The position numbers were made by a program, and so were the translations under genes. The notes beneath the pieces were generated by a model. That model was not told the origin of the DNA, did no database searches, and saw only the letters and a program-made list of their open reading frames with translations. From assembly GCA_937872615.1 (NCBI GenBank), contig CALMTT010000618.1, positions 1 to 44,539 of the forward strand: 44,539 bases of DNA, given 5' to 3'. This DNA is from an uncultured Verrucomicrobiaceae bacterium (lineage in GTDB: Bacteria; Verrucomicrobiota; Verrucomicrobiia; Verrucomicrobiales; Verrucomicrobiaceae). Positions 551 through 44,133 of the stretch are shown here, one piece after another (position 1 is the first letter of the stretch; each line of letters starts with the position of its first letter).

Positions 551-976
551 AGGTATTCTCCTAATCGTGCAACCTTAGCTCTCTGTGGTTGGCTCATGAG
601 GCTGAACAACTGAGAATAACCGCCTTCGTGGATTCGCAGCGCACGGTGACGCGGATCATCTCCACATCGGTCACGCGCGGGACGCCCGCATTGGGGCATG
701 GAAGAAGTATTCAATTGCTGCTCGTTCTCAAGGTCCGTGAACCATGCGCCAGCAGACTTGCTGTCCAAACGAGCACTTTGAACCGAAACCTCAACGTAAG
801 GCGTCAGTCGCGTGGTTTACGAACATCTCTCAGGTAGTTCACTCCCAACCAAACGTCAAGGCCAGGGTTAGGCTTTTGGATCAGCCAAGTCCACGCTGCG
901 GACGCCATCGGGACTATGCGCGCATCTTGTGTAGCAGCTACACCCTCACGCGGACGGGCTGTGCTCAACTACAACC
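551..976. other. Gap with no convincing gene
   Basis: This stretch of about 425 bases has no reading frame with clear coding character. A minus-strand frame (514-768, TTG start) is open and not absurd in composition, but it overlaps the better supported 356-550 gene out of phase and has no ribosome-binding site. The stretch should hold the promoter of the 356-550 gene and of the plus-strand gene at 977. A palindrome near its right end is listed separately. Confidence 0.4.
929..943. promoter_or_regulatory. Short palindrome upstream of the 977 gene, possible operator
   Basis: A perfect 6-bp inverted repeat with a 3-base spacer (GTGTAG-cag-CTACAC) lies 33 bases before the ATG at 977, where a promoter or operator would be expected. 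No matching regulator is identified; size and position are the only support. Confidence 0.3.
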
Positions 977-1255
977 ATGAGCACGACCGCGACTCTGAAA
1001 TCGGGCTGCCAACTGTGGGGCATTTACCACACCGACCGTGAGTATGCCCGCTTGATGGGCGATCCACTCCGCACTGTCGTCGAAGCCCCGTCCAAGTTTG
1101 CCGCCGAACAAGCCGCCGCGCGATTCGGCTTCAGCGAACCCTGGGCACATCCCGTGACTCCCGAAGAAGCACAACGCGCCGGAATGCTTCCTCAAGACAG
1201 CAAGAGCCGCCGCCAGCAATCCAACCGCAGGCACTCACACGGCATCCACATCTGA
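977..1255 (+). CDS. Hypothetical protein, 92 residues
   Basis: I do not recognise this family. The frame from ATG 977 encodes MSTTATLKSGCQLWGIYH and a soluble, mixed alpha/beta-looking segment (DREYARLMGDPLRTVVEAPSK) followed by an Ala-rich helix (AAEQAAARFGF) and a basic, Gln/Arg/His-rich tail. Composition is protein-like over the first 70 residues (spaced Trp, Tyr, Pro, charged residues), which is why I prefer it to the overlapping minus-strand frames. The next gene starts two bases after its stop, so the two probably form a small operon leading towards the transfer genes. It has no membrane segment or Cys motif. Confidence 0.5.
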   Translation: MSTTATLKSGCQLWGIYHTDREYARLMGDPLRTVVEAPSKFAAEQAAARFGFSEPWAHPVTPEEAQRAGMLPQDSKSRRQQSNRRHSHGIHI

Positions 1256-1257
1256 TT

Positions 1258-1512
1258 ATGCAAACACCCACGTCCGCTGAAATCCGAACCGCCATCCAGG
1301 TGTTGAAACGGTTTGGCGAACACATCAACCACAACGCCGCGAATGTCATCATTGATCTGCCGGAAACTCGATTCGGCGAGCATGTCGCAGCACGCGCCAA
1401 AGTGGTGAGCATCGAACAAGTCACTCGAATTCAGGCCGTCGCGGAGCAGTTGGAGAAGTGGCGCGACGATTTGCTCCAACAGAGGAGGCAGTGTGTTGCT
1501 CATCATGTTTAA
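1258..1512 (+). CDS. Hypothetical helical protein, 84 residues
   Basis: This starts with ATG two bases after the previous stop. It is predicted to be mostly helical: SAEIRTAIQVLKRFGEHIN, then an acidic/hydrophobic stretch, then VEQVTRIQAVAEQLEKWRDDLLQQRR, which looks like a coiled coil with an Arg-rich end. I do not recognise the family. Its place between an unknown small protein and the traK/L/M-like genes suggests an accessory gene of the same element. It could bind DNA or a partner through the C-terminal helix, but that is speculation. Confidence 0.5.
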   Translation: MQTPTSAEIRTAIQVLKRFGEHINHNAANVIIDLPETRFGEHVAARAKVVSIEQVTRIQAVAEQLEKWRDDLLQQRRQCVAHHV

Positions 1513-1966
1513 GACAAGGCACGCGTTACCCCTTCGTTCCGAAGGACTCTGCGTCCGCGAAGCAGTCGCGGTGAATCCTCAAAACATCTGCGCGATATGA
1601 ATCACGCACGAACACAATCGCGGCAAGTCCGCGAGCATGGACAGGCAAAGAGCAGGCCGCAGTTGCGGCTGATCCGTGTTCACAAACAGTCCGCAGCCGT
1701 GTCCAGTCCGGGCCAACAATCGAGAGCGCGAACAGTCCACGTCCGTGGCAACGACGCGGCTTCAACTGGCCGCGAGTGCGGCGCAGCAGCGGACGTGGAT
1801 ATTTCGCAGGCAGGCGGCATCCGCGAACCTGACGTGGTTGCCGTCCAGCCACAGACAGGCATGGGCCGCGAACCAGTTCAGGCAGGGAGCTATCCAATCC
1901 ACCGCATCGCCGTGGACATTCTGCCGCCAACCAGTTTCCCGGTTTGCATCTGCCACAATCCAGCCT
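1513..1966. other. Intergenic region, candidate transfer origin
   Basis: About 450 bases precede the traK-like gene without a convincing reading frame; frames on both strands are open but Arg/Gln/Cys-rich and unlike real proteins. Two short inverted repeats are visible: 1619-1633 (CGCGG-caagt-CCGCG) and 1656-1669 (GCCGCA-gt-TGCGGC). In IncP plasmids oriT lies directly upstream of traK, so this is where an oriT would be expected if the downstream trio is traKLM-like. I did not find a canonical IncP nic hexamer, so the assignment is positional only. Confidence 0.25.
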
Positions 1967-2398
1967 ATGTCCTCCTTTGATCCAGCCGCAGTCCGCAAGG
2001 CGGTCGAGGAATTCACGCCACGCCGTCCGCAGAAGTTCCAGGATTTGCTCCCGGCGAAGGAAGTCATCGTCGAGTTGCGTCAGAAACGCGCGTCGTATCG
2101 CTCCATCGCAGACCTCCTTACGCAGCATTGTCTGCCGACGAGCAAAACGGCTATCGCGCAATTCTGTCATCAGGTGCTCGGTGAAAACGTCCGGCCACGA
2201 AAACGGCTAGGACGGAAACGTCCAATCATGTCCGTGTCAGTAAACGGAGAGGGGGCAGCGCCTGAACCGGCATCGGCCACTGAAGTCGCGATGGCTACCG
2301 ACCCGCCCACGAATCCCGATGGCGGCGACTCGACTCCTGGCCGCGCTCGCGGACCGCGTATTGCCCAAGTGCGGATGCTTAAACCTCAAACCACATGA
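1967..2398 (+). CDS. TraK-like HTH DNA-binding protein of a transfer module
   Basis: A 143-residue protein starting MSSFDPAAVRKAVEEFTPRR. Residues about 25-70 hold a helix-turn-helix-like stretch (ELRQKRASYRSIADLL, then TSKTAIAQFCHQVL), the arrangement seen in small plasmid proteins that bind oriT or centromere-like sites. The rest is a basic linker and a Pro/Ser/Thr-rich disordered tail. The start at 1967 is preferred over in-frame upstream starts because the upstream translation is not protein-like. Its TGA overlaps the ATG of the ParA-like gene (ATGA at 2395-2398). Length (IncP TraK is about 134 residues) and order before a ParA-like and a small membrane protein mirror traK-traL-traM. I saw no direct sequence proof of TraK. 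Confidence 0.5.
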   Translation: MSSFDPAAVRKAVEEFTPRRPQKFQDLLPAKEVIVELRQKRASYRSIADLLTQHCLPTSKTAIAQFCHQVLGENVRPRKRLGRKRPIMSVSVNGEGAAPEPASATEVAMATDPPTNPDGGDSTPGRARGPRIAQVRMLKPQTT

Positions 2399-3087
2399 AA
2401 CGACTCGATTTGATCCTCAACGGCAAAGGTGGCGTCGGCAAAAGCTTCTTTGCAGTGAACTTCGTCCAATTCCTCAAGGACAAGGGCATTGCTCATGTCG
2501 CGATTGATTCCGACAACGAGAACTCAACATTGAAGCGGTTTCACCCGGACACGCGATTCCTCGACCTGGACACTCGCCGGGAACTCGACGGGATATTCAC
2601 GGCACTCGAAAAGGCCAATCTCATGGTCATGGATTGCCGCGCCGCGTCCACCGACCTGTTTATTGATTACTTCACGGAGATTGACCTGTCCGCCGTGCTA
2701 TCCGCGATGGGCGCGGCGCTCACGCTCATCATGCCGGTGAACCACGAGGCGGACAGCGTGGACCAGATCCAGCGGCTCACCGACCAGTTCGGAAAGCAAT
2801 GCAGCTATGTGGTGGTTCGCAATGCCGCGCACAGCGACAGCTTTGCCCTGTTCGAGTCGTCGGAGGTGCGCGCTCAACTCAAGGACAAGCTCGGTGGACG
2901 GGAAATTGCCATGAGCCGATTGCAGGATTGGCTGGTTGAAGCACTTAACGCCGAGAATCTGACGATTACGGCTGCGACTAAGCACCCGGCGTTCAGCCTT
3001 CTTGATCGGCAACGTCTTCAAACATGGCAGCGGAAGCTCTATTCCGAGATCGAATCCGTAGCTGGCCTTTTGTTGCCCGCTAAATAG
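2395..3087 (+). CDS. ParA/MinD-superfamily ATPase, TraL-like
   Basis: A 230-residue P-loop ATPase. The deviant Walker A motif GKGGVGKS is at residues 10-17, with the signature lysine at position 11 that marks the MinD/ParA/SIMIBI class. It is followed by the switch strand (HVAIDSDNENST) and a third strand with MVMDCRAAS. Proteins of this size next to coupling proteins are usually TraL-type (IncP) or StbC-type partners of conjugation. A true ParA of a segregation pair would normally have a ParB neighbour, and none is seen here. It is translationally coupled to the gene before it (ATGA), and the next gene starts four bases after its stop. The role is inferred from this context: positioning or stabilising the transfer complex at the inner membrane. 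Confidence 0.75.
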   Translation: MKRLDLILNGKGGVGKSFFAVNFVQFLKDKGIAHVAIDSDNENSTLKRFHPDTRFLDLDTRRELDGIFTALEKANLMVMDCRAASTDLFIDYFTEIDLSAVLSAMGAALTLIMPVNHEADSVDQIQRLTDQFGKQCSYVVVRNAAHSDSFALFESSEVRAQLKDKLGGREIAMSRLQDWLVEALNAENLTITAATKHPAFSLLDRQRLQTWQRKLYSEIESVAGLLLPAK

Positions 3088-3091
3088 TCCC

Positions 3092-3457
3092 ATGTCGAGC
3101 AACGACCAGCCCAACTTCGACGAAGAGTTCGACGCGGCCGTCGCCGAGTGGCGCGATAAACATCGGCTGCGAGAAGACGACGCGGTGATGCTCCTCGTCG
3201 AGTTGTTCCGAATCCACCAGCGGCATTGGGATGAAGTCCGACGCCGGGAGTTTCCGTCGTTTGAACAATTCCGGGCGGACATCACAAAGCTGGCGGAAGC
3301 TGCGCGGACATTTCAGGGACAATCGGCGGCATTGCTCGAAATCTTGCGAACTCAAGCGCCTGCTCACCGCGCAGCCAGAGTCACTCGTGCCGCTGCTGTC
3401 TGTGCGACCATCGCGGGGCTGCTCGCGGGTTATCTGATTGGGAGGGCATGGCCATGA
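3092..3457 (+). CDS. TraM-like small tail-anchored membrane protein
   Basis: A 121-residue protein with a long acidic, helical cytoplasmic part (NFDEEFDAAVAEWRDKHR, then FRADITKLAEAARTFQ) and one C-terminal transmembrane segment (about residues 97-117, AAAVCATIAGLLAGYLIG) ending in RAWP. A ParA-like gene four bases upstream and a coupling ATPase overlapping its end match the place of TraM in IncP-type traKLM operons. The family link rests on topology, size and order rather than recognised motifs. The next gene overlaps its last bases. Confidence 0.5.
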   Translation: MSSNDQPNFDEEFDAAVAEWRDKHRLREDDAVMLLVELFRIHQRHWDEVRRREFPSFEQFRADITKLAEAARTFQGQSAALLEILRTQAPAHRAARVTRAAAVCATIAGLLAGYLIGRAWP

Positions 3458-4944
3458 AACTCGACCTCATCCCCTTTGGTCCGATAATGCCGTCTCCAAA
3501 CCTCATCTTTGCGTTGAGGAATCCCCAACATATTATGGTCGCTGGCGGCATCCTGCTGGCGATCATCGCCGCATGGGTGTTGTTCAAGCCGAAGAAGGGT
3601 GGATACGTGGCGCGGCTCGGTGGACTGATGTGGAAGCGAACGCAGTTCTGCCGAGGATGGCTCATCACAGGGGACACGGGCTCAGGCAAAACGAGTTCCG
3701 GCATCAATCAACTGGCGCACCAGGTTTTTCAGAATGAGCCGACGTGGGGCGGGTTGTGCATTGATGAGAAAGGCGTCTATTGGGAAACGCTCACAGCGAT
3801 GGCGAAGCACTACGGGCGTGAGGGAGATCTGATTCAGTTGCGAATACGCACCGGCAGCGAGGACGCCCAATGGACACCGCAGCATCGCTTCAACCTGACG
3901 GGCGACCGGAGCATCCCTTTCACGACCTACGCGAAGTTCATTGTGGATACCGCCACCAGTCTCGGCCAAGGCGGGGATAAAGGGTTCTTCAAGAGCCAGG
4001 CGCAGACCCACATCGCCCACGCGCTCGAAATGCTCTACGAATTGAAACGTCCCGTCACGTTGCTCGGCGCGTTCGAGTTGCTGTCCGACCGCGAGTTGCT
4101 CGAAGAAGAAATGGAGAACCTGGAATCGCTGCTTGAAACGCCGCGTCGCGAGGCCGTTTACGCCCACTTTGCGAATCGCTTCCTGAACCAGCCGGACGAG
4201 CAATCCGGCGGCGTCCGCGAAACCATCGGCAACTACCTGCAATACTTTCTGACACCCGAAGTCGCCGAGGTGTTCTGTGCAGAGGAAAGCACGTTCGACT
4301 TCGCCGCGATTGACCAGGGCAAGATCATCCTAACCACGATGCCGCAGAAGTTCCAAACTGAGCGCCGCTATGTGAACACGTTTCTCAAGCTGCTGTATTA
4401 CAGCCACGCGCTGCGTCGTTTCGACCAGACCAAAGCTGACCGTGCGAAAGACAATCTGCTCATCCTGTGGGCCGACGAAGCGCAACGCTTCATGACCGCC
4501 AGCGAAGACGGCACGAGCGACTACAATTGCGTGGACGTGATCCGCGAAGCTGGGGCGACCGTCGTAGCCGCCGCCCAAAGCACGACTTCCTTTGTTCCGC
4601 CCCTCGGCAACGATAAATCAAAAGTGCTCACGTTGAATCTCCGCAACCGAATGATCTTCCGTGCCGCCGACGAAGCCGATGCCGTCCAAGCTGCCGACTT
4701 CCTCGGCAAGAAGCTCGTCGTGAAGCGCTCGTGGGGATTCAGTGCCGGCAAGCGCAACGTGAACTATTCCGAGACCGAGGAACACAAAATCAAGCCGCAC
4801 AAGCTCCGCAATCTCCGCGACCACGAGTGCGTCCTCGTCCATTGCGAACGGGGCTTCCGGCGGGTGACACTGCCCCCGCTTGAGTCGGACGGTACAATTG
4901 CTAAATGGTTCAGTAGCTGGAAGCGGCTATTCGCTGGAGGGTGA
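3454..4944 (+). CDS. Type IV coupling protein, VirD4/TraG/TraD family
   Basis: A 496-residue membrane ATPase that would bring the relaxase-DNA complex to a type IV secretion channel. There is one transmembrane segment near the N-terminus (about 27-44, HIMVAGGILLAIIAAWVL), then a Walker A motif GDTGSGKT (73-80) and a Walker B strand LLILWADEAQ (D341, E342). A later AAQSTTSF stretch resembles the sensor region of FtsK/VirD4 ATPases. It is shorter than most VirD4 proteins (about 550-700), mainly because it has one rather than two membrane segments. I chose ATG 3454 rather than 3448 because the GGGAGGG at 3440-3446 is correctly spaced from it. It overlaps the end of the TraM-like gene. No relaxase or mating-pair genes are in view, so the element may be mobilisable only or may continue elsewhere. 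Confidence 0.8.
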   Translation: MKLDLIPFGPIMPSPNLIFALRNPQHIMVAGGILLAIIAAWVLFKPKKGGYVARLGGLMWKRTQFCRGWLITGDTGSGKTSSGINQLAHQVFQNEPTWGGLCIDEKGVYWETLTAMAKHYGREGDLIQLRIRTGSEDAQWTPQHRFNLTGDRSIPFTTYAKFIVDTATSLGQGGDKGFFKSQAQTHIAHALEMLYELKRPVTLLGAFELLSDRELLEEEMENLESLLETPRREAVYAHFANRFLNQPDEQSGGVRETIGNYLQYFLTPEVAEVFCAEESTFDFAAIDQGKIILTTMPQKFQTERRYVNTFLKLLYYSHALRRFDQTKADRAKDNLLILWADEAQRFMTASEDGTSDYNCVDVIREAGATVVAAAQSTTSFVPPLGNDKSKVLTLNLRNRMIFRAADEADAVQAADFLGKKLVVKRSWGFSAGKRNVNYSETEEHKIKPHKLRNLRDHECVLVHCERGFRRVTLPPLESDGTIAKWFSSWKRLFAGG

Positions 4945-5214
4945 TGGCACAGCAGATCAAGTGTCAGTTCAGTTGGAATCCAGATTAGTTGGCAGGGGTG
5001 GATTTGATGGATTCAGCTTCCGCCGCTCTAGCCTCAGCTCTTTCCAATCAGCCAATGCCTTGCCGTGGATGATTCCGGGGTAAATGACGTGCATTATGTC
5101 CGCCTTATCTCATGGGGATGTCAGCGGATGGCATACCCCGTCGGTTAAGGTGGTCACCAAATTGCCGTGGAGTGCCGTTACAGTAGCGGCTGCGGGCGGC
5201 AACCGGATGCCAAT
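4945..5214. other. Short gap between coupling protein and ClpP-like gene
   Basis: About 270 bases without a convincing gene. I see no strong hairpin or promoter; it probably carries the promoter of the ClpP-like gene. Confidence 0.3.
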
Positions 5215-5817
5215 ATGATTACCATCAATCTCCCGATTACGGGCGCGTTCGACGCGCGAGCCATCGAAGTGGCCGACCGCTTGCAAGAAGCCAAGCCAGG
5301 CGATGAGTTCAAGTTTTGCCTTTATGACACGGGCAACGTGCTGGTGGATGCGGCACTCGCGTTTTACGAGATAGTGCGAACACGTCCGCGAGGAATCAGA
5401 GTTCATATCCACAGCCATGTGTGCCTGGCCGGGGCTGAAGTGCTGATCTGGCTGGCGGGAGACACGCGCACACTGCGATCGAACGCCTGGATTCACTTCC
5501 GCGAGTATCCTCGGCAATGGTTGGACCGTTCGGACATGCAGCAATTTCTCGACAGTCTGGAAGGGCGCGAAGTGCCGGCGGGCAAAACGGCGTTTCAGGA
5601 GAATTATCTGACGGCGGAGCGACTGGTGAAGAAACAACTGCCGCCGCACCTGCTGAATCGGCGCGTGTGGGCCGGCGAGCTGGCGGAGTGGAAGATCATA
5701 GAACCAGCGATGCGGACAGCGAAAGGGGTGATGACAGCCGGTCCGGGCAAAGCGAAACCAGTTGCGCCCACGCCGACGAAGGTCACCGGCAATCAAACGC
5801 AGATGGCGTTGTTTTGA
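5215..5817 (+). CDS. ClpP/crotonase-fold protein lacking an obvious catalytic serine
   Basis: A 200-residue protein. The N-terminal part (MITINLPITGAFDARAIEVA, strand-helix), VHIHSHVCLAGAEVLIWLAG (63-82) and the strand ending WIHF (H94) follow the ClpP/SppA layout. In ClpP the nucleophile lies nine residues before the glycine ending the helix, in a G-x-A-S-M-G context. The matching position here is glycine (LAGAE) with no serine nearby, while a histidine is kept where ClpP has its catalytic H. The protein may therefore be an inactive scaffold or use another residue. I prefer ATG 5215 over an in-frame GTG at 5167 because the fold begins right after it. It ends 12 bases from the convergent minus-strand operon. 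Similar ClpP-like genes occur on mobile elements; its role here is unknown. Confidence 0.65.
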   Translation: MITINLPITGAFDARAIEVADRLQEAKPGDEFKFCLYDTGNVLVDAALAFYEIVRTRPRGIRVHIHSHVCLAGAEVLIWLAGDTRTLRSNAWIHFREYPRQWLDRSDMQQFLDSLEGREVPAGKTAFQENYLTAERLVKKQLPPHLLNRRVWAGELAEWKIIEPAMRTAKGVMTAGPGKAKPVAPTPTKVTGNQTQMALF

Positions 5818-15983: not shown

Positions 15984-16934
15984 TCATGACACGCTTGATG
16001 ATACTTTGTTTCCGTGCTGCTCAAGGGAGCGCAGGGCTTCCTTCACCATCTCTTCAGCCTTAAACTCCATCTGCTGCTGCTTGCGCTTACGCAGAAGATG
16101 ATAAACCCAATCGAAAACCAAGGGACTGCGCGAGCGGTTATCGAAGAGGGCGTCTTGCACTAGCTGGCTTTGATTCAATGCCTCGGCATCGTCGAGCCGC
16201 CGTTCCATCGCCTGTCTCCAAAGCGCCTCGACCGCCGCGAGACCGCGCTCGTCGGCCTGGATAGCGTCGCGCTGGGAAATAATTTCGCGCAGTATCCACA
16301 CGATGGCGGGTGCGAGCGGGACATACACCGTGAGAATCATCTGTTGCACTGTGTCGCCGCGCACAAGCGCAATCAGAAAAATGGCAATCGCGAGGACGCT
16401 CAAGATTGCAGTGAGAGCGCCGCGCACGCGGTCGCGCTGGCGCAAATCCCACCAAAGGCTTGCGCGTTGACAGATAAGCCGAGCAAGCGACAGAGGCAGT
16501 GCCTTCACTGACGGTGGATACCAGTCGGGGAGTCCGTTCCGTGCTTTAGGGCTGCGAAGCTGATCCTGGGCGTCGGCCAAGATGTCTTCCGAGTCAACAC
16601 GAGGACCGCAACGCAACGCGCGCCACGGCAGCTCAAAGACTGCGCAATCAAACATCTGCTGGACCACTGCACCGCGCTTTTTGAACCGAGCAAGCGCACG
16701 TGTGAGGCAAAGGACGTCAAACAACGTGACTGTGATAGAAAAAAACGTGAGCCAAACTTTCCACGTCGGCTGCCATGCCATCAGCAGGGCGCTGGCAAGT
16801 GCCGCAGGAACAGTGAGCGCAAACTGGACGGCCATAAGGCGCTTGGCGCGGCCATAAATGCGACTAGCGGCAGCGAGCAAATTGATTTGCTCATCTTCGT
16901 TTTGCTTTACGGCAATGTTGCACCCAGTTACCAC
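15984..16934 (-). CDS. S-4TM family membrane effector of CBASS
   Basis: A 316-residue protein with four hydrophobic segments in two pairs: about 33-54 and 58-79, then 172-191 and 197-216, separated by a soluble loop with a conserved-looking LPDWYPPSVKALPL stretch. This is the layout of S-4TM family putative pore-forming effectors (Pfam S_4TM), which accompany CD-NTases and are thought to open the inner membrane when they bind the cyclic oligonucleotide. A basic, helical C-terminal tail (HLLRKRKQQQMEFKAEEM) follows. The GTG start at 16934 overlaps the CD-NTase stop by seven bases, consistent with translational coupling. Loss of membrane integrity would stop phage growth by cell suicide. The immediate neighbour makes this assignment strong; the ligand specificity is unknown. 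Confidence 0.8.
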   Translation of the reverse strand: MVTGCNIAVKQNEDEQINLLAAASRIYGRAKRLMAVQFALTVPAALASALLMAWQPTWKVWLTFFSITVTLFDVLCLTRALARFKKRGAVVQQMFDCAVFELPWRALRCGPRVDSEDILADAQDQLRSPKARNGLPDWYPPSVKALPLSLARLICQRASLWWDLRQRDRVRGALTAILSVLAIAIFLIALVRGDTVQQMILTVYVPLAPAIVWILREIISQRDAIQADERGLAAVEALWRQAMERRLDDAEALNQSQLVQDALFDNRSRSPLVFDWVYHLLRKRKQQQMEFKAEEMVKEALRSLEQHGNKVSSSVS

Positions 16935-17803
16935 GGGAATTTGGTGTTAAAGACGATGTCCCACTGACGGCGAGCCTCGGCCAGGTCGTTACGCAGGTCA
17001 GCGGAAACTGCGCTCTCTGCGTGATCGCGTGAGTTGATCACCGAGGCGAGCGCCCGCTCACGCTGACTAGCAGTTTTGACGGCGGGAATGTTGCCGGCGA
17101 TACCGTAAGGATCACGCATGGCGCGGCACTCGCGCCGAGCGAGGCTGCGCAAAATGTCCAACATGCAGTCCGCATAAGATTTCACCCCTTTGCAGACTTC
17201 CTCGTAGGCGAGCACCATCTCAATGTGAAACGATGAAAGCGGAATACGCGGCTCGCGACACTCACGCCAGAATTTCATAAGTTGGGCGACATAAATCATT
17301 TTGCTGCCACTCGCTGTGTTGGCTTCAGATAGATATGCGTCATAGAGACTGGGACTGGTTTGCATCCAAGCGCCAGAACCATCGGGAATCAGATAAACCG
17401 GCCACTTCTCCTTATACATGGAGTCAAAGACACCAGGCACAACATCCACGTGACGACCATCTGAAAAGGAAACGGCAATCGCGATACCGTCCTTGTAAAC
17501 GTTGCTGTTGGGATAGCGCTCCGCCAATGCCACTCGGACCTTTTCCAGGGCCGTGTCGGAATTGATGAGATTGTCGCCCCACGTAAAGACTGCCTTTCGG
17601 AAGACCGCCAGCAGGTCCGTATCGCTGAAGCCACGAATGGATGTGCCGCGGGCGAAGCTGCCGATGGCGAAACACTTGGAAACCTCGAACTCTGTTTCTA
17701 GTCGGGCGCGGATTGTGGCAAGATGCTGGCGCGCTGCTTGATTTTCTGATTCGAGTGGCTGAATCCGGCTGATGAGCAACTGGAATGATTCACTGATGTT
17801 CAT
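16928..17803 (-). CDS. CD-NTase (CBASS cyclic-oligonucleotide synthase)
   Basis: A 291-residue nucleotidyltransferase. The catalytic core shows the G-S motif FAIGSFARGT (45-54), the paired aspartates SDTDLL (D61, D63) and a third aspartate in RHVDVVPG (D120), which together bind the two metal ions. A helical C-terminal half (YVAQLMKFWRECREP, DILRSLARRECRAM) follows, as in the nucleotidyltransferase plus OAS1-C-like layout. Such enzymes sense phage infection and make cyclic di- or trinucleotides that trigger an effector, here the S-4TM protein in the overlapping next gene. No Cap2/Cap3 (E1/E2/JAB) or HORMA genes are nearby, so this is a minimal, type I-like CBASS. The SD GAGGTG (complement of 17809-17814) is well placed, and a promoter candidate lies about 40-65 bases upstream. 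Confidence 0.9.
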   Translation of the reverse strand: MNISESFQLLISRIQPLESENQAARQHLATIRARLETEFEVSKCFAIGSFARGTSIRGFSDTDLLAVFRKAVFTWGDNLINSDTALEKVRVALAERYPNSNVYKDGIAIAVSFSDGRHVDVVPGVFDSMYKEKWPVYLIPDGSGAWMQTSPSLYDAYLSEANTASGSKMIYVAQLMKFWRECREPRIPLSSFHIEMVLAYEEVCKGVKSYADCMLDILRSLARRECRAMRDPYGIAGNIPAVKTASQRERALASVINSRDHAESAVSADLRNDLAEARRQWDIVFNTKFPW

Positions 17804-19161: not shown

Positions 19162-22100
19162 ATGAACGTATTCAACTTTCGCAATCAGATCATTGAGGAC
19201 TACAGCGGCTACGTTTCGAGCTTCATCTCCATTGCCCAGCCCCGACTTCGTGAGTTCGTTGACCGCTGCTTTCGGTCCGGTTCTCTTTGGCCCGATCCCC
19301 TGATTCAACTAAACCCGACCTTCAAGCCGGGCAAGACCGTGGCCGAGTTGGTGCAGGAAGGTGTGCTCGATTCCAGCTGCACTCAGGTTTTCCGCCGCGA
19401 GAAAACATCGGCGGTTGGCAGCGGAGAGGACCTGCTTTTTCACCAGCATCAGGAAGACGCGATTCGGAAAGCGAAGGAGGGACGGAACTATGTGCTGACG
19501 ACTGGCACAGGTTCCGGCAAGAGCCTCTCCTACATCGTCCCGATTGTAGATCACGTTCTGCGCAACGGCTCGGGGCGCGGCATCCAGGCAATCATCATCT
19601 ACCCGATGAATGCCCTGGCCAACAGCCAGTATGGGGAACTGGAAAAGTTTCTGAAGTTGGGATTTGCCGGCGGCAAAGGTCCGGTCACCTTCGAGCGCTA
19701 CACCGGACAGGAAGACGAAGAAACGCGCACGCGAATCATCGCCACGCCTCCTGACATCTTGCTGACGAATTACGTCATGCTGGAATTGATTCTTACCCGG
19801 CCGCGCGAGAAGAAACTCATCGCTTCCGCGAAAGGTTTGAAATTCCTGGTGCTTGACGAACTTCACACCTACCGCGGTCGCCAAGGAGCTGATGTGGCAT
19901 TGCTATTGCGCCGGGTGCGGGAATTACTCAATGCCGACGCGATGCAGTGCATTGGCACTTCCGCAACGTTGGCAGGGCGAGGTTCGTGGGAAGAGCAGTG
20001 CGCCGACGTCGCCCGGTTGGCCACCCGCCTGTTCGGGGATACCGTCGAAGCATCCGACATTATTGGTGAAACGCTGGAACGCGCTACCGCTCCCATTGAC
20101 GAGACCAGCGCCGCCGATGTCGCCGCCCTCAGCGCGGTGCTCGCGCCAGACGCCAGACATCTGCCGGAGACCTTTGAGCAACTCGCGGCTGATCCAGTTG
20201 CCCGCTGGGTTGAAGGAACTTTTGGCATCGTCCCGCGTGCTGGCCGGCTCGTCCGTTCGCCTTCCATCCCCCTGACCGGAAAGAATGGCGCCGCCGAGCG
20301 TCTTGCCAAACTTACTGGCGCGTCTCCCGATCGCTGCAAGGACGTGGTTGCAGAAACACTGCTCGCCGGAGCCACCCGCATCCGCCACCCGCGAACGGGA
20401 TTTCCTGTCTTCGCATTCCGTCTCCATCAATTCATCAGCCGTGGCGACACGCTCTACGCGACCGTTGAGTCGCCGGAACAGCGATACCTCACCATTCACG
20501 GCCAGATTTATTCGCCCGAGGACCGCAACAAAGTTTTGCTTCCGCTTTGCTTCTGCCGCGAGTGCGGGCAGGAATATTACTCGGTGTATCTCGCCAAAGA
20601 CCCACAGACCGGCGAGCAGAGATTTCTCAGTCGCGAGGCTCACGAACGCACTGAAGTCGTAGGCCAGCAGCAGGGCCTGCTTTATATCAATCCGCAGAAG
20701 CCGTGGCCGCGCGATACTGAAATGGAGACGCAGCTTGCCTGGCTGCCCACGGACTGGGTTGAAGAGCGCAACGGCAAACGGCAGGTCATCGCCTCTCGCC
20801 GCGAACGGATGCCGCGACACTACATGGTGAAATCGGACGGCTCAATCGGAGCGGACGGCTTGGATGTCGCGTTCATCCCGGTGCCCTTCATGTTCTGCCT
20901 GGGCTGCGGTGTGTCGCACACGGCGCGTCAGCGTTCTGACTTCTCCAAGCTCGGCACGCTCGGCTCGGAAGGCCGGAGCACCGCGACCACCATTCTCACC
21001 ACTTCGGCTGTGGCTGGCCTTCAACGCGAGGAGACGATCAAGCCCGAAGCGCGCAAGCTGCTCAGTTTCACCGACAATCGTCAGGATGCTTCACTGCAAT
21101 CCGGGCACCTCAACGATTTCATTGAGGTCGGACTTCTCCGGGGCGCGATTTACAAAGCTGCCGTGGCCGCTGGTGCCGACGGCCTGCGGGACGACACGAT
21201 CAGCCAGAAAGTCACGGCGGCTCTCGGCCTGCGGTTCGAGGATTACGCCAAAGACCCAACCATCAAATACGGCCGGGACAAGGTGGAAAACGTCCTGCGG
21301 GATGTCGTGGGTTACCGCGTCTATCGCGATCTGCGTCGTGGTTGGCGCGTCAACGCGCCGAACCTGGAGCAATGCGGCCTCATTGAAATTGACTACGCTG
21401 AACTCGATGCCGTTTCCGGCGACGCCGCTTTGTGGACCGCGCTGCATCCATTGCTTGGCAATGCGAGCGCCGAGACGCGCAAGGTCATCTGCCGAACCCT
21501 CCTCGATTTCATCCGGCGCGATCTCTGCACCGAGGTGGACTACCTCGATCGTGACACTCAGGATCGCATCAAGCGCAACAGCTTTAATGAGCTTCGCGAT
21601 CCGTGGGCGTTCGATCCAGTCGAGAAACTCGACCAGCGGAAACTGGCGTTTCCATGCTCGAAATTGGAGGACACTTCGGAGCTTGAGGCTTCGTATATTT
21701 CCGCTCTCGGCGGGTTCGGCCTGTTTCTGCGTTCCGCGAATACTTTTCCCGGCCAGTCCAAGCCCGATGTGGCCACCACCAAAGACCTCATCTGTGCGCT
21801 GTTCGAGGGACTGCGGCAGGCGAACATCGTCCGCGAGTGTGTTCCGAAAGGCGAACGTGCGCCAGTGCCCGGCTATCGTATCAACTCCGGCGCCCTCATC
21901 TGGCGCGCGGGCGATGGCACCAAGGCTTACCACGACCGCATTCGCATGCCCACCGCTTCGGCCACTGGCAACACGCCCAACCGATTCTTCGTCGAATTAT
22001 TTCGCTCACGCATTCAGCAATTGCGCGGTGTCTCTTCGCGTGAGCATACGGCGCAGGTGCCGAGTCAGCTTCGGGTCCAACGTGAGAACGACTTTCGCGC

Positions 22101-24870
22101 AGCCAAGTTGCCCATTCTGTTCTGTTCGCCGACGATGGAACTTGGCATCGACATCAAGGATTTGAACGCAGTCAATCTGCGCAACGTCCCGCCCACGCCG
22201 GCCAATTACGCGCAGCGCAGCGGTCGCGCCGGTCGCAGCGGGCAACCCGCCTTGGTGTTCACCTACTGCTCATTCGGCAGCCCTCACGACCAATACTTTT
22301 TCAAGCATCCGGAGTTGATGGTTTCCGGTCAGGTGCAAACGCCGCGCCTTGATGTAGCAAACGAAGACCTCATCCGGTCCCACATCCACGCCGTCTGGCT
22401 GCGCGAAGCCGATCTCGATCTCGGTAATACACCCGGCGACCTCATCACACTCGGCGGTGAACCGCCCTCGCTGGAGTTACTCCCGGACGTGAAGGACAAA
22501 GTCCGCAGCCACGCTGCCGCCGCGCAGGCGCGTGTTCGCGCCAAGGAACTCCTTGATGCGCTCAGCCCGTATCTTGCCAGCGCCCCGTGGTATTCCGAAG
22601 GTTGGCTCGACGAAGTGTTGCGTGGCGTCCCGCACGCCTTTGAGGCTGCGCTCGAACGCTGGCGCTTTCTCTACCGCACGGCGCGCAATCAAGCTGACGA
22701 ACAAAATCGCATCATTCTGGATCATTCCCGTCCGCAGGATCACGAAAACGCGAAGCGCCTCCGCCAGGAGGCGGAAGCCCAGCTCAAGCTCCTCACCGAC
22801 AAACAGAGCGTCGTTCAGTCGGATTTCTACAGCTATCGCTACTTTGCCAGCGAAGGCTTCCTGCCCGGCTACAACTTCCCGCGCCTTCCACTGTCCGCCT
22901 TCATTCCCGGACGGCGCACCGCGCAGGAGGCCGAAGAGTTTATCTCCCGCCCGCGCTTCCTCGCCATTTCCGAGTTTGGTCCGGGCGCGCTGATCTACCA
23001 CGAGGGCGCACGTTACCAGGTCACTCGCGTGATGATGCCGATTCAGGAAGGTGCCACCGGCGACCTGCCAACCTCGAAACTCATCGTGTGCAGCGCCTGT
23101 GGCTACCTCCACCCCGTGCTGACCGAGCCCGGTCCATCCAACTGTGAGCGGTGCAAGCAGGCGTTCGAGGCAAAGGACATTTGGAGCAACATGTTCCGGC
23201 AACAAAACGTTGTCACCCGGCGGCGCGAACGCATCAACTGCGACGAGGAAGAGCGCCTGCGTCTCGGTTACGAAGTCAAAACCGGCGTGCGCTTCGCCGA
23301 GCGCGATGGCCGCCCGCTTTTTCGCACGGCCCGCCTGCTCATCGGCGGCAAACAATTTGCCGAATTACAATATGGCGACGCCGCCGAATTGTGGCGCGTG
23401 AATCTTGGTTGGTCCCGCCGGGAGAACAAGGAAGACCGCGGGTTCTGGCTTGATGTCGAGCAGCGGCGCTGGACTAAACGCGCCATCGACCCGGACGACG
23501 AGGACGAAAACGGCGGCAAAGCGCCCGCCCGCGTCCAGAAAGTCATTCCCTATGTCAAAGACCGTCGCAACAGCTTGGTTGTTGCGCTGGCTGACGAGTG
23601 GGATTTGAACGTGATGGCTTCGCTGGAAGCTTCGCTCAAACGCGCCATTCAGATCGAATATCAGCTCGAAGATGCCGAACTCGCGACCGAGGCGCTTCCG
23701 ACGCGGCAGAAACGCCGCCATCTACTCTTCTTTGAAGCGTCCGAAGGCGGCGCGGGTGTGTTGCGGCAGTTGGTGGAAGACCCCGGAGCCTGGGTGCGCG
23801 TAGCCCGCACTGCACTCGCGCTTTGTCACTTTGATCCCGACACCGGTGCCGACCTCGGCAAGGCGGAACACGCAGCGGAGAAATGTCAGGCTGCCTGTTA
23901 CGACTGTCTGCTCAGTTACTTCAATCAGCCCGATCACGAGTCGTTGGACCGACACTGCGTTAAAGACCTGCTGCAACAAATCATGGCGGGCACGATGGAG
24001 CCGTCTCCGGTCGAAATTCCCCGCGCCGAGCATCTCGCGCAATTGAAGCGTCTCTGCGACTCCGGCCTCGAAAAGCAGTTCCTCGACTTTCTGGATCAGC
24101 ACAACCTGCGGCTGCCCGAACGCGCCCAGCACTATTACGAGCAGTTCGGCACGCGCCCCGATTTCAGTTACACGGGCGAGAACCCGGCATTCATCTATGT
24201 GGATGGACCGCCGCACGACTTCCCGGAGCGCCAGACCCGTGACACCACACAGAACGCCACGCTCAAGGCAGAAGGCATCACCGTCATTCGATTCCATCAC
24301 GCCACAGATTGGGCATCGGTTGTTGCCCAGTATCCGAGCGTCTTCGGGAAACCTGTTACCCAACACCGGCTGGATTTCGAAGCGGCGGTTTTCTTGCTCC
24401 GGTTCGACAAGCCCGGACACGCAGCATTTACCGATGCCGACAAAGCCACCTGCCGCGCAGAGGCAGAAGCGGCCTTGGGCAAGTTGTTGAAGGACCACTG
24501 CGCGATTTCCGATGCGGTCCTTTCCCTCCGTTTTGCCGGCGACGGCCATTCTTCATACTGGGTCGAGTTTACGGTCATCGCTGGTGTGATTGCGGCGACC
24601 CCCTATGTTCTCCATCTGCTCGGTAACTGTTTGAATGCGGCGGGAAACATTGCAGCCCATCTTTCCGTGGGGATGTCCTTGGCCGGCGGTTGGCTCAAAA
24701 CCGCCGCGTGGCGACTCACGCCCCAGCCCCAACCAGCCAATGCCCCAGCTATGCCGAAGCCGGGTTGTTTCGGCAATCCAGATGTGCTCGACCGGCGCAC
24801 CAAGCTTTGCCGGGATTGCTGGGTGCGTCCGGACTGCGAGAAAGCTATCGCGGCAGGAGGCAGCCAATGA
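19162..24870 (+). CDS. Giant YprA/DruE-like DEAD helicase with DUF1998
   Basis: A 1902-residue protein. An SF2 helicase core has motif I GTGSGKS (115-121), motif II DELH (232-235), motif [10 protein letters not shown], and motif [12 protein letters not shown] (1018-1027). Zinc-binding Cys pairs follow at CRECG and CSACG/CERC. The DUF1998 domain shows EASEGGAG (1525 on) and the Cys cluster C1575, C1579, C1582 (CQAACYDC). Next is a Vsr/DUF559-like nuclease fold with RPDF (D1667) and IYVDG (D1681) plus [13 protein letters not shown], in which the usual glutamate (IEVDG) is replaced by Tyr. Length and order match DruE (Druantia) and other YprA-family giants more than DISARM DrmA. It would act as an ATP-driven helicase/translocase and motor of the system. 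Its stop overlaps the next ATG. Confidence 0.85.
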
Positions 24871-27692
24871 GCTACGCTCCGGGCACTCTCGTCAAGGCGC
24901 GCGGGCGAGAATGGGTTGTCTTGCCGGAATCAGAGGACGATTTCCTCGTCGTTCGCCCGCTCGGCGGCACGATTCAAGAAACCGCCGGCATCCATTCCGT
25001 GCTGGAGTCCGTCACCCCGGCCACGTTTGCTCCACCGGCTCAAAACGATCTCGGTGATTTCGTCTCGTGCCGTCTGTTGCGTGATGCGGTGCGTTTCGGT
25101 TTCCGCTCCAGTGCCGGACCATTTCGATCTTTCGGTCGGCTCGCGGTGCAGCCACGACCGTATCAGCTCGTGCCGCTGCTCATGGCGCTCAAACTCGATC
25201 CCATCCGGCTGCTCATCGCGGACGATGTCGGCATCGGCAAGACCATCGAGGCGTGTCTGGTTGCGCGCGAAATGCTCGACCGTGGCGAGATCACCCGGCT
25301 CTGCGTGCTCTGTCCACCCCATCTTGCCGAACAGTGGCAAAAGGAACTCGCGACCAAATTCAACATCGCGGTTGAACTGGTGCTTTCAAGCACGGCACGC
25401 CGTCTCGAAAAAAATCTTCGTTCCGATCAATCCATCTTCGACGCGCATCCGTTCGTGGTCGTCTCGATGGACTTCATCAAGGCCGACCGACGACGCCATG
25501 ATTTTCTCCGCACCTGCCCGGATTTCGTCATCGTGGATGAAGCCCACACGTGCGCGTCGTCGGCTGAGGGACGTGGCGCTGCTCATCAGCGGCACGAACT
25601 GCTGGCGAAGCTCGCTGAAAAACCGGAGCGCCATCTTGTGCTCGTCACCGCCACGCCGCACAGTGGCAACGAAGGCGCGTTTCGTTCCTTGCTCGCACTG
25701 CTCACGCCCGACTTCAACAATTTGCCGGATGACCTGAGCGGCCCGGACAAGGCGGTCCACCGCCGCCGGCTCGCCGCACATCTGGTCCAGCGCCGCCGGG
25801 CCGATCTGCGCCACTTTCTTCAACGCGACACGCCGTTTCCCGAGCGCAAGGACACCGAAGCGCACTACGAACTCAGCCCCGCTTACAAGGCGCTCTTCGA
25901 GAAGGTGCTCGACTACGCGCGCGAGACTGTCACCGACGCTTCCGGCGGCGCGCTTCATCAACGCGTTCGGTGGTGGTCTGCGTTATCACTCCTTCGCGCG
26001 ATGGCCAGCAGCCCCGCTGCGGCTGCTGCAACACTGACGGAACGTTCCAACGTGCTTGAAGCGAGCGATGCAACGTCCGCCGACGAACTCGGACGCAAGT
26101 CTGTCCTCGATGTTACCGAAGACCTGGGCGACGAAGCCTCGGATGTAGTGCCGGGAGCTGACCCCGAAGCCGAGGGCGACAATCCCGTTCGCCGCCGTCT
26201 GCTCGCCTTCGCCAGAGACGCGAAAAAACTGTATGGCGATGAAGACCATAAACTCACCAAGCTGCTGCCCCGCCTTCAGTCACTCCTGAACGATGGCTTC
26301 AAGCCGATCATCTTCTGCCGCTTCATCCAGACGGCGGAATACGTCGCGGCGGAGTTGCGCGCCCGGCTGAAAAAGGTGGAGGTCACTTGCATCACCAGCC
26401 AGCTCCCGCCGGAGGAGCGCGCCGCCCGGATCGAGACTCTGGGCAGCGACGGCAGCAGCGCCCGCATTCTTGTCTGCACCGACTGCCTCAGTGAAGGCAT
26501 CAACCTTCAGGAAAAGTTCGACGCCGTGGTTCACTACGATCTCTCGTGGAATCCGACCCGTCACGAGCAACGCGATGGCCGCGTGGACCGCTTCGGCCAG
26601 ACCAACGAGAAAAAGGAAGTCCGCGTCCTGACCTACTACGGCACGGACAATCAGATTGACGGAATCGTCCTCGATGTCCTGCTGCGCAAACATCAGAAGA
26701 TTCGCAATGCACTTGGTGTCTCCGTGCCGATGCCCGTGGACAGTGAGCAGGTTGTCAAAGCCGTGTTCGAGGGTCTGCTGCTGCGCGGCCAGACGGGCAA
26801 ACAATCCGACGCCATTCTGCCGGGATTCGATGAATACTTCCGCCCGCAGAAACAGCAACTCCACGAGCAATGGCAAGCCGTAGCGGATCGCGAAGAGAGA
26901 TCGCGCAAATCAATGTTTAGGCAGGAGACGATCAAGTTTGAAGAAGTCGGCGCGGAGTTGGCTGCCGCCGAGCACGCGATCGGTTCGCCGGCGGAAATCT
27001 CCAATTTCTTCCGCTCGACGCTCACACTCTCCGGCGCAGTGGTGAATGAGGAAGCCATCCTCAAGACCGACCTTGCGGGCCTCAAGCCCGCCGTCCGCGA
27101 AGCTCTCGGCGGGGTCACGCGTCTCGAAGTAGCGTTCGAGCCGGTCGCCGTCAAGCATGTGGCTGTGCTTCATCGCACGCATCCACTCGTCGAAGGACTT
27201 GCCACCTATGTGTTGAACTCGGCGCTCGATCCGCTGCTCGGCGGACTCGCGCGGCGCGCGGGCGTCATGCGTTCGAAAGCCGTGACCACGCGCACCGTGC
27301 TGATGCTCCTGAGGCTTCGCTTTCACATCGTCACCACGACCCGCGAAGGCGAGCGTCACTTGCTCGCTGAAGATGCTCTGCTCACGGCCTTCACCGACGA
27401 TCCCGCCTCGCCGCAATGGTTGCCCGAAGCGGACGCGGAAAAGCTCATCGGCTTGAAGCCGGACGCCAACGTCCCGCCGGACATCGCCGTTCATCAGCTT
27501 GTTTCGGTTACGGACCATTTACCCGGCATGATTCCGAAGCTCGACGAGTTCGCCCGCCTCCGGGGACAGCAACTCCTCGAAGCCCACCGCCGCGTCCGCA
27601 GTGCCGCTGGCGCGAAGGGAAGCTACCGCATTGATCACAGCCCGCCGGACGTGCTCGGCATCTACATCTTCCTTCCGGTTGCCAAGCTATGA
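24867..27692 (+). CDS. DrmD-like SNF2 helicase
   Basis: A 941-residue SNF2-family ATPase: motif I DDVGIGKT (119-126), DEAH (224-227), ATPHSG (motif III region), and second RecA domain with [12 protein letters not shown] and [10 protein letters not shown] (569-578). It resembles DrmD of class 1 DISARM in size, motifs and its place directly before an adenine methylase gene. The start at 24867 is set by an AGGAGG about seven bases before it and by the ATGA overlap with the giant helicase. An upstream in-frame start at 24690 would lie inside the helicase gene and its translation is Pro/Ala-rich. In the DISARM model this protein and the helicase act on DNA lacking host methylation; that role is inferred here. 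Confidence 0.8.
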
Positions 27693-34427: not shown

Positions 34428-34478
34428 ATGAAATCCAAGACATTTGAAGACCCGAAGGTCACTGGAGGCAAACCGTGA
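34428..34478 (+). CDS. Possible 16-residue leader peptide
   Basis: MKSKTFEDPKVTGGKP begins five bases after the previous stop, and its TGA overlaps the GTG start of the OLD gene (GTGA 34475-34478). The GGAGG that serves the OLD start lies inside it. It may couple translation of the OLD gene or may be a chance frame. Confidence 0.25.
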   Translation: MKSKTFEDPKVTGGKP

Positions 34479-43800: not shown

Positions 43801-44133
43801 TTCCCAGCAGTCGCAAAGCCGGAATTGGTGTCCGATTGGGAGCGCGTGTTCTACCAGCAACTCTGGAACGCCGGCCTGCGTCCAATTCCTCAGTATGCGG
43901 AGGAGAAATTCCTCTTGGATTTTGCGCTGTTCATTGATGGCCGGAAATTGAACATCGAAGTCGATGGGGAGCGTTATCACCGAGATTGGAATGGGGAACT
44001 ACTCCGTCGTGATCAACTGCGCAACATGCGAATGATGGAGCTTGGCTGGGATGTGATGCGATTTTGGGTTTACCAACTACGCGATGACATGCCCGCCTGC
44101 ATCGAGCGGGTGAAACAATGGATTAACCACTAA
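40801..44133 (+). CDS. SF1 helicase with N-terminal wHTH and C-terminal DUF559-like nuclease
   Basis: A 1110-residue protein of three parts. The N-terminus (about 1-60, ILTLLHAQPGLKGREVAS, ADKTEVNSTLWKLKNRGL) is a winged helix. The core is an AAA_11/AAA_12 helicase of the UPF1-like SF1 class: Walker A GPPGTGKS (357-364), VIDEASQCD (D709, E710), a GDPKQL motif, HKFQGDERDVMIFSPV and ITRARAAL (R951). The C-terminal 100 residues are a Vsr/DUF559-type PD-(D/E)xK nuclease: LDFALF (D1040), IEVDGERYH (E1053, D1055) and RRDQLRNMRMMELGW. Such proteins unwind and cut DNA from an end. It lies 28 bases after the SbcC-like gene, so it is probably in the same operon. The nuclease resembles the tail of the giant helicase, where the Glu is lost. 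Confidence 0.8.
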   Translation: MIADNDILTLLHAQPGLKGREVASRLNADKTEVNSTLWKLKNRGLTRQDNAYRWFLVEKAAAGNQQTKAASQQVTPLGRLCRYYLECLSLDDQGGVSLFAQSNFGLDYVEIPELPGITSERGLTSFDGVDRLFQRLRNGAERKVPYLGYPVRLRKLRSAKGWEGFLVEPVFLFSFNDDALRPGQIPEASDDTPSINHAVIKSFAIGNDSQVMEEAARLAEELGLGEPEIPDFDEVVQRLVQIRGEWDWRETIDPNQISNGESLSQIATEGIYNRCIVFGCERSPFTKGLEQELAKLQEMPADRYRSTALDMWLERKQSPDAVPVAANHALLEPLPLNTEQRDAIEHALTRPLTVITGPPGTGKSQVVSSLLINAAKLGKRVLFASKNNKAVDVVEARVNNLGPRPILLRLGRGEYQSKLTDYLTALLASRATEEDRFNHDEAEKAFQATVQQIQRLQESAERVVKLRNEVDMLEQRIEPLRAELGDELLLAGRTMDLQPTRGHAARLRAAVNHATRSRQDFFTRLLWFLHRAECLQSVTTTADGMRDAIGPFGLTPPANPSTDAHLGTWEQFLEKLDARIEAVAQVADYFQKLAALSGGKGIESIWKSIADEREKLAKESLTLWEYWLRLAPGRLSAEDRRLLGEFAAVLRLLVQSDQDKRMAGRQVLSQYFKLFPSLVSMLSCWAVTSLSTRGRVPLEPGFFDLVVIDEASQCDIASAIPLLFRAKAAVIIGDPKQLRHISAIQPRRDRELLHKHALADGFANWAYSENSVFDLASPLAGQDDIIMLRDHHRSHADIIEFSNQHFYEGRLRIATKYDRLRRPALDEPTVRWVDVQGAVTRPGSGALNETEARAVVKEIERLGIQQGYQGTVGVVTPFRAQANRIRDLVNAHPQAALLLGRLDLLIDTVHKFQGDERDVMIFSPVVSKDISEGALGFLKKTGNLFNVAITRARAALVVVGDTAAAKASGVSYLAGFAEYVDGLGAGRQAEQRANASSGPEFPAVAKPELVSDWERVFYQQLWNAGLRPIPQYAEEKFLLDFALFIDGRKLNIEVDGERYHRDWNGELLRRDQLRNMRMMELGWDVMRFWVYQLRDDMPACIERVKQWINH

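Follow-up and report, generated by a model that had tools for sequence, protein, structure and literature searches.

The question raised by this locus is whether a set of defense genes in an uncultured Verrucomicrobiaceae bacterium sits on DNA that moves, or once moved, by conjugation. The window analyzed here is one entire contig (CALMTT010000618.1; 44,539 bases) from a 6.8-Mb metagenome-assembled genome (MAG) of 744 contigs, which is 91% complete and 7.4% contaminated. Four genes at 1967-4944 resemble a conjugative transfer (tra) module. A preliminary description, made from the letters alone, had read them as a traKLM-like trio with a coupling ATPase beside a possible origin of transfer (oriT), and had suggested that the defense genes sit on or beside a mobilizable element.

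Comparison with relatives leads to a more specific answer. The module is very probably the DNA-processing end of an integrative and conjugative element (ICE) of Verrucomicrobiota, in which the slot between the coupling gene, traD, and the virB genes takes up cargo, and the defense island travels, or has traveled, as cargo of this ICE.

The four-gene module and its relaxase

The four open reading frames (ORFs) do stand in close order, as first described: by the ORF list and the sequence itself, all lie on the plus strand and overlap or almost abut. The first (1967-2398, 143 aa) encodes a basic, helical, helix-turn-helix (HTH)-like protein in the position of TraK/StbA; its ATG is at 1967, in a frame that is open back to 1676. 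It is followed by a TraL/StbB-type, ParA-like ATPase (2395-3087, 230 aa) with the P-loop NGKGGVGKS, by a tail-anchored protein in the position of TraM/StbC (3092-3457, 121 aa) with a predicted C-terminal helix, and by a TrwB/VirD4-type, TraD-like type IV coupling protein (3448-4944, 498 aa). The coupling protein passes the Pfam cut-offs of both TrwB_AAD_bind (PF10412; 52.5 versus 20.5 bits, E = 4.8e-14) and PF02534 (28.8 bits).

The name traKLM-like proved apt for one of the three genes. The ATPase matches the NCBIfam model NF010461 ("TraL") over residues 1-223 of 230 (E = 7e-17) with 61.6 bits, the model's cut-off of 360 bits lying far above, and hhalign aligns it with IncP TraL over almost the full length at a probability of 98.6%. 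It matches 613 plasmid records, 606 with at least 80% of the query covered and 445 of the 613 typed as conjugative. The proteins in the TraK and TraM positions had no match at a meaningful E-value in family searches, and neither gave a usable profile match to IncP. For the TraK-position protein, AlphaFold predicts a helical N-terminal part (block pLDDT of 81-95 over residues 1-70; pTM 0.42), and a Foldseek comparison of this model with the PDB returned no match at E <= 0.001. The model of the TraM-position protein has a helix at its C-terminus (residues 99-119; pTM 0.32). The two proteins were aligned with 30 relatives at 24-80% identity and with 24 relatives at 23-87% identity, respectively. 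A profile of TraK-like relatives reached a probability of 1% against IncP TraK with 55 rows (a few probably mis-called; HTH only) and 0.1% with 7 rows. The corresponding TraM-like profile showed weak N-terminal similarity to IncP TraM, with probabilities of 13% (8 rows) and 1% (60 rows, a few mis-called). By these sequence tests, TraK and TraM of the window are positional analogs, and homology to IncP is indicated for TraL only.

A TraL-alignment scan of a species-genome collection yielded 136 relatives. Eighty loci were retained and the first 73 used, seven cyanobacterial loci with partial matches being left out. All 73-locus figures rest on this one scan, and most loci were read only within 10-kb flanks. 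In the labels used below, C denotes contigs (of the window's own genome, G000, unless another genome is named), G denotes genomes of relatives, and L denotes module loci or stretches. The traD gene lies no more than 1.6 kb from the start of traL in 58 of the 68 loci with more than 1 kb of sequence downstream; therefore, the gene order is not a product of chance. When the coupling protein was searched for in 288 genomes of the order, 37 genomes matched, and the own genome did so at five places.

Two small plus-strand ORFs precede the gap in front of the module. One (orf977; 977-1255, 92 aa) heads the tra operon; among the 24 closest loci (L068-L091), 20 have a match to it, with identities of 44-80%. 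The other (orf1258; 1258-1512, 84 aa) is matched in all 24, with identities of 35-95%. Neither has a family match at a meaningful E-value. Both are part of the module because DNA homology to contig C593 extends from 911 to 4911 and that to contig C400, split into two segments, falls between 1001 and 4926. Judged by this homology, the module begins at the two small ORFs, earlier than the 1513 proposed initially.

Of the 73 loci, 49 (of the 63 that can be judged) have a divergent relaxase gene whose start is no more than 2 kb from traL. The start is farther away in seven loci and is absent from more than 3 kb of flank in another seven; the remaining ten have too little sequence for a judgment. 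One of the loci counted as farther, L076, is so classed only because 2.4 kb separates orf1258 from the HTH gene; its relaxase adjoins orf977. The relaxase of L068 is TrwC (PF08751, class MOBF) with a TraI-type helicase part. TrwC was found in 9 of 10 genomes examined, and the own genome has eight matches, one of which comprises the first 65 domain positions at the extreme end of C593, directly upstream of the tra module of that contig. A search of the own genome for MOBP relaxases (PF03432) gave no match. In two genomes, the full MOBF relaxase is immediately preceded by a second, diverged relaxase-domain match in an open frame of ~250 aa (G029:C6:347764-348240 and G259:C4:308402-308953). There is also a second group of coupling proteins (~39% identity), found once per genome in many genomes of the same genus (for example, G008:C3:786546-787958). 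The only TrwC match of G008 is on a different contig, and G082 has no TrwC match.

In the window, the place usually held by the relaxase in relatives (1-890) is occupied by sequence unrelated to the module. This stretch includes a 64-aa ORF on the minus strand (356-550) and the start of an ORF, glycosyltransferase-like by eye, that is truncated by the contig end. A blastx comparison of 1-1600 with two relaxases gave a best E-value of 0.66. DNA homology to C593 stops at 911, ~17 bases short of the C593 relaxase start, and the profile of the oriT-like site described below still fits to 891. The window's copy might be a remnant, namely a piece of an ICE that is now without its relaxase and engulfed by a chromosomal defense island, so that the island has ceased to move by conjugation. 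We regard this as possible but doubtful. The unrelated DNA at the site of the C593 relaxase favors it, as do the seven loci without a relaxase start in their flanks, and in C593 a piece of the traD 3' end is found 23 kb away from the complete gene, so fragments do occur. However, all four module genes are open in the window, with 78-95% identity to C593 and 80-93% to L069. In addition, a relaxase in the expected orientation precedes the tra operon on the same contig in C400 (by ~42 kb), G288 (by ~52 kb), and G290 (by ~27 kb). If these relaxases belong to the same elements as the tra genes, as they presumably do, distance need not mean loss. Intervening DNA between relaxase and tra operon, or a flank without relaxase, is seen in the window, C400, L070, L075, L079, L091, L096, L097, and others, and the distance in L097 is 0.5 kb. 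Such split elements could reflect duplicated operators, recombination between elements, or insertion made by the relaxase.

The distribution of TraL is consistent with an ICE that moves horizontally. For the three own-genome copies, the starred branches of a tree built from 69 TraL proteins require three gains or losses, each separate; the same holds for the three copies of isolate bog_1418, and those of G288 call for at least two. The own-genome copies are forced apart, as separate gain predicts, in groups too small for a shuffled-label control to add more. A vertical history with many losses may also be compatible with the tree alone, and the MAG may mix strains. Modules with TraL identities of 92% (L072), 85% (L080), and 63% (L096) occur in MAGs labeled Latescibacterota, Methanoregulaceae, and Planctomycetota, which reflects either wide transfer or binning errors. 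No TraL relative is encoded by the viral contigs searched (71 pattern matches). In L136 (1541-2166), TraL residues 1-84 are fused straight to TraD residues 365-489, and in L135 (7469-11820), TraL residues 1-80 are followed by the second half of a relaxase on the opposite strand. These joins are due either to recombination near the same point of TraL or to assembly.

The palindromic site and the repeat-bearing gap

The possible oriT had been placed in the non-coding gap at 1513-1966. The best candidate for an oriT-like site lies instead upstream of this gap, at 891-944, and consists of the palindrome GTGTAGCAGCTACAC at 929-943 together with a spacer. This palindrome is the best candidate for a hairpin recognized by the relaxase. 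A profile of 23 related sites, whose rows include the window's own site and both copies from L070, L075, and L091, scores 38.2 bits at 891-944. Where the relaxase gene and orf977 are adjacent in the window's clade, their starts are 82 bases apart, and the palindrome lies within that space.

The same arrangement recurs with different letters. The 49 of 73 loci with a usable relaxase start come from several clades but are related and so do not count as independent rows. In 40 of them, a palindrome that is perfect over arms of at least 5 precedes the relaxase mark by 45.5-50 bases, and its inner 5-mer takes 24 different forms. Counted at a fixed position, palindromes with arms of at least 5 peak at 38 of 49, compared with 15 at the adjoining step and at most 10 elsewhere. 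When looser loops are allowed, the neighboring 55-base region also has palindromes with arms of at least 6 in 18 of 49 rows, at scattered positions. A fixed place, varying letters, and preserved pairing would be expected of a hairpin read by a relaxase or of a co-evolving operator. Relaxases such as TrwC are described as recognizing a hairpin 5' of the nick site, nic (PMC4814116). Over 1.5 Mb, the site profile found no strong extra copy apart from relaxase or tra genes.

A motif resembling R388 TATTGTCT, TANTGTC, begins 18-19 bases ahead of the relaxase mark in 14 of the 49 rows, compared with a shuffle mean of 0.85. These shuffles, like those for loose palindromes and for the gap words discussed below, preserve single-base composition only. 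The motif was considered as nic and not adopted because it lies ~20 bases from the palindrome, is absent from the window, and has an orientation that would send the relaxase gene in first, an order that is described as unusual (PMC11541004).

In the split loci L070, L075, and L091, both flanks score as the palindromic site, with copies that were in the training set of the profile. By eye, C400, L096, and L097 retain the palindrome on the relaxase side, and L079 retains little. Conceivably, the site is also a growth point, at which a MOBF relaxase that recombines oriT-like sites captures cargo and thereby creates a second slot besides that between traD and virB, but this idea is distinctly improbable.

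The gap at 1513-1966 does contain the two short inverted repeats that had been noted in it. As read from the sequence, these are CCTTCG-TTC-CGAAGG at 1531-1545 and CCGCGA-AGCAG-TCGCGG at 1555-1571, and pairing in the first hairpin is preserved in the own-genome relative C400 through two compensatory changes. The corresponding gaps of relatives are rich in CAGTCCG/GTCCGC words. CAGTCCG occurs 48 times on both strands in 9.84 kb of 23 gaps, which corresponds to 4.9 per kb versus 0.37 per kb in whole loci (13x), a density that leans on a few gaps (L082 with 7 copies, L083 with 6). The window's own gap has two copies, and its commonest 7-mer, present three times, is within the shuffle range. R388 StbA is described as binding direct repeats (stbDRs) upstream of its gene (PMC3098194). 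By analogy, the gap is likely a candidate binding region of the TraK/StbA-like protein.

Secretion genes and cargo downstream of traD

In three relatives (G004, G029, and G259), traD is followed on the same strand by genes for VirB2, VirB3, VirB4, a lipoprotein, VirB5, VirB6, VirB8, VirB9, and VirB10. G288 has a VirB2-B10 set downstream of traD, the set of G290 extends as far as VirB4, where the contig ends, and virB genes are also found in the flanks of L073, L096, L114, and L123. VirB10/TrbI (7e-18) and VirB4 (P-loop_TraG, 6.5e-10) pass the Pfam cut-off; VirB9 (1e-4), VirB5 (8.5e-5), and VirB2 (0.005) fall below it, and VirB3, VirB6, and VirB8 are named by position and mutual similarity. Wherever the head of the virB operon is seen, a divergent Clp-type AAA ATPase gene is located there (for example, L037:7948-9069), and a very large helicase-like protein is encoded at the far end of the operon in G029, G259, and G288. 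A tyrosine integrase in G259 passes the Pfam cut-off and has relatives in L069, L071, L104, and G290; it presumably belongs to the element. A tRNA scan found one tRNA in 18 stretches.

The relaxase and type IV secretion system (T4SS) genes sought outside the window are thus present beside orthologous modules. In the own genome, MOBF relaxases and virB genes are carried by contigs other than the window. C730 has VirB3-B4, C577 has VirB4-B10 (each contig is short), and C62 has a more distant T4SS, whose strand is opposite that of the contig's traD; none of these can be joined to the window. Because modules of relatives adjoin a MOBF relaxase, several of them with a VirB-type T4SS, a lack of nearby transfer genes and of conjugative orthologs does not apply to the family. 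The proposed link to conjugation therefore stands at the family level, although the window itself holds neither relaxase nor T4SS. "Mobilizable" describes the family too modestly, as several relatives carry a T4SS of their own.

That term would be exact for an integrative mobilizable element, with a relaxase and coupling protein only, that borrows the T4SS of another ICE in the cell. We consider this unlikely. In its favor, tblastn with the G259 and G029 VirB proteins finds no T4SS gene in the 44.5-kb window, own-genome virB genes are confined to other contigs, and 6 of the 22 genomes queried, all bearing the module (for example, G291) or a near relative, gave no VirB4 match. Against this explanation stand the virB genes downstream of traD, on the same strand, in all five relatives that were followed, and those in the flanks of the four further loci. 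VirB4 also lies on the same contig and strand as traD, ~64 kb beyond it, in G297, and ~149 kb beyond it in G298.

The preferred reading, an ICE with a cargo slot, further depends on what lies between traD and virB. In the window, this slot extends from 4945 to 44539, at least 39.6 kb, and the contig ends inside it. Pfam and PADLOC matches identify defense genes in the slot: a SMODS cyclase with an S_4TM effector (15984-17803), a DruE-like helicase (19162-24870), an SNF2 helicase with an Eco57I-type methylase (24690-32002), an OLD/GajA-like gene (34475-36448), and a large helicase (40801-44133), among others. The first ORF after traD (5167-5817) is ClpP/SppA-like by eye and has no meaningful Pfam match. 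Homology of the window to C593 and C400 ends at the 3' end of traD, and C593 has relatives of the DruE-like, SNF2, and Eco57I genes (46-54% identity) directly after its own traD.

The length of the slot, from traD to the Clp-like ATPase gene heading virB, varies: G259 has ~0.6 kb, G029 ~8 kb, G004 ~13 kb, G290 ~27 kb, and G288 ~34 kb. G288 carries a DISARM set (DrmD, DrmMI, DrmA, DrmB, DrmC) and a class II prokaryotic Argonaute (pAgo) there, and G290 carries an Hma set, Thoeris (ThsA with three ThsB), and a class I pAgo. Judged by family matches, the slot holds differing defense systems in G288 and G290, and the same slot in the window does likewise. C593 (36073-36555, in L031), G004 (C5:134672-134836), and L075 (16913-17036) each carry, ~4-23 kb beyond the complete traD and on its strand, a fragment of the 3' end of that gene; these are remnants of a second module or of recombination. 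The traD 3' end was considered as an integration site on account of these fragments. This idea was dropped, as homology ends at the end of the gene and the window has no second traD copy.

Several observations weigh against an ICE whose slot gathers defense genes. No relaxase, T4SS, or integrase was found in the window. Because the MAG is in 744 contigs and 7.4% contaminated, the own-genome module copies cannot be joined, and some may be another strain's. The six genomes without a VirB4 match count here as well, and virB does not lie close behind traD in every relative (G291, G298). An earlier probe with PF03135 had found no VirB4 in 10 genomes. That negative is false, because PF19044 (matches at E <= 0.001 in 11 of 15 genomes and past its cut-off in 5) and a VirB4 protein query (16 of 22 genomes, the own genome among them) then found VirB4. 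The slot of G259 is almost empty, and that of G029 is mainly transporter-like by eye. The slot proteins were chosen by hand (nine in G288 and eight in G290, of which seven and eight have PADLOC matches at 1e-10). In a broader sample, the largest ORF after traD has a PADLOC match in 7 of 10 loci, one of them to a candidate family only (PDC-S02), versus 3 of 10 control ORFs; two of these three control matches seem to be relatives of housekeeping proteins, one a RecQ-type helicase and the other a kinase. The bias is in the expected direction and not significant (Fisher two-sided, ~0.18). Sixteen loci offered at least 5 kb beyond traD, and in 10 of these the largest ORF of the first 8.5 kb was sampled; L068, L083, L088, and L089 were left out, and L078 and L090 were treated separately. 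The sampled loci without a PADLOC match are L071, L076, and L082. Control ORFs were drawn from contig C10 of 16 genomes, of which L170 was dropped for a tra module on the contig, L174, L176, and L177 were too short, and L178 and L179 were surplus.

In the transfer process that we propose for the ICE, the MOBF relaxase would nick oriT, probably near the palindrome between the relaxase gene and the tra operon, and the TraK/StbA-like protein would bind the gap repeats. The TraL/StbB ATPase and its tail-anchored partner would position the element DNA, and the TrwB-like coupling ATPase would pass the strand to the VirB-type T4SS, whose genes lie further downstream. Cargo, including phage-defense systems in several elements, would be acquired in the slot between the coupling gene and virB. 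For the window's copy, mobility is something that we infer, because its relaxase, T4SS, and integrase were not found there and its contig ends inside the cargo.

If correct, this assignment provides a concrete vehicle for defense islands in Verrucomicrobiota. Defense systems have been exchanged in the traD-virB slot of at least three elements; therefore, defense cargo should be collectable by searching for the backbone. Full-text searches for conjugative elements in Verrucomicrobiota yielded few papers, none with such an element in its title, and no description of the ICE family was found in the literature searched, most subscription journals and preprints being outside its coverage.

Comparison with known conjugation systems

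The gene and MOB-class names used here follow, in part, common usage. With IncP plasmids such as RP4, the module shares the order TraK, TraL, TraM, divergent from the relaxase and with a non-coding gap between (IncP record LC623896), and a TraL that is homologous across almost its full length. The IncP relaxase TraI is of the MOBP type, whereas the relaxase neighboring the module in relatives is MOBF (TrwC). Unlike in IncP, the coupling gene here directly follows the trio, two extra small ORFs precede it, and homology of TraK and TraM is undetectable by profile comparison. Among plasmid records, only those of Opitutaceae bacterium TAV5 and Termitidicoccus mucosus have a related coupling protein, and they are also the only two with at least 80% of VirB4 covered. 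They differ in that identity is only 28-34%.

The other close parallel is the IncW plasmid R388, on which stbABC adjoins oriT beside a MOBF relaxase, TrwC, and StbB is a relative of TraL (PMC3098194). This parallel raises the possibility that the module is a stability (partition) operon, like stbABC, that serves plasmid maintenance rather than transfer. R388 StbA is described as required for stability, and StbB homologs as including RP4 TraL (PMC3098194), which would suit such a role. However, StbA and StbB are reported in the same source to control conjugation too, and here the third gene of the operon and the coupling gene overlap, with a relaxase adjacent in many relatives. A role in partition is therefore very unlikely. 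The same study describes stbB-like genes as biased to conjugative plasmids with a T4SS of the MPF-T type (PMC3098194).

Relatives share with R388 a MOBF relaxase with an StbB-like gene nearby, a pairing not seen in the window. In gene order they differ from R388, in that the relaxase gene is divergent and the coupling gene is grouped with the stb-like genes. StbB of MOBF11 plasmids is reported to have the motif SGXXGK[T/S], whereas the window's protein has KGGVGKS, and the form KGGXXK[T/S] is reported for StbB of MOBP plasmids (PMC3098194). Sequence comparison indicates that the family mixes an IncP-type TraL, a MOBF relaxase of the R388 class, and a VirB-type T4SS. An StbB with the KGG motif encoded beside a MOBF relaxase is a combination that fits neither of the two groups which that source describes for R388-like plasmids (PMC3098194).

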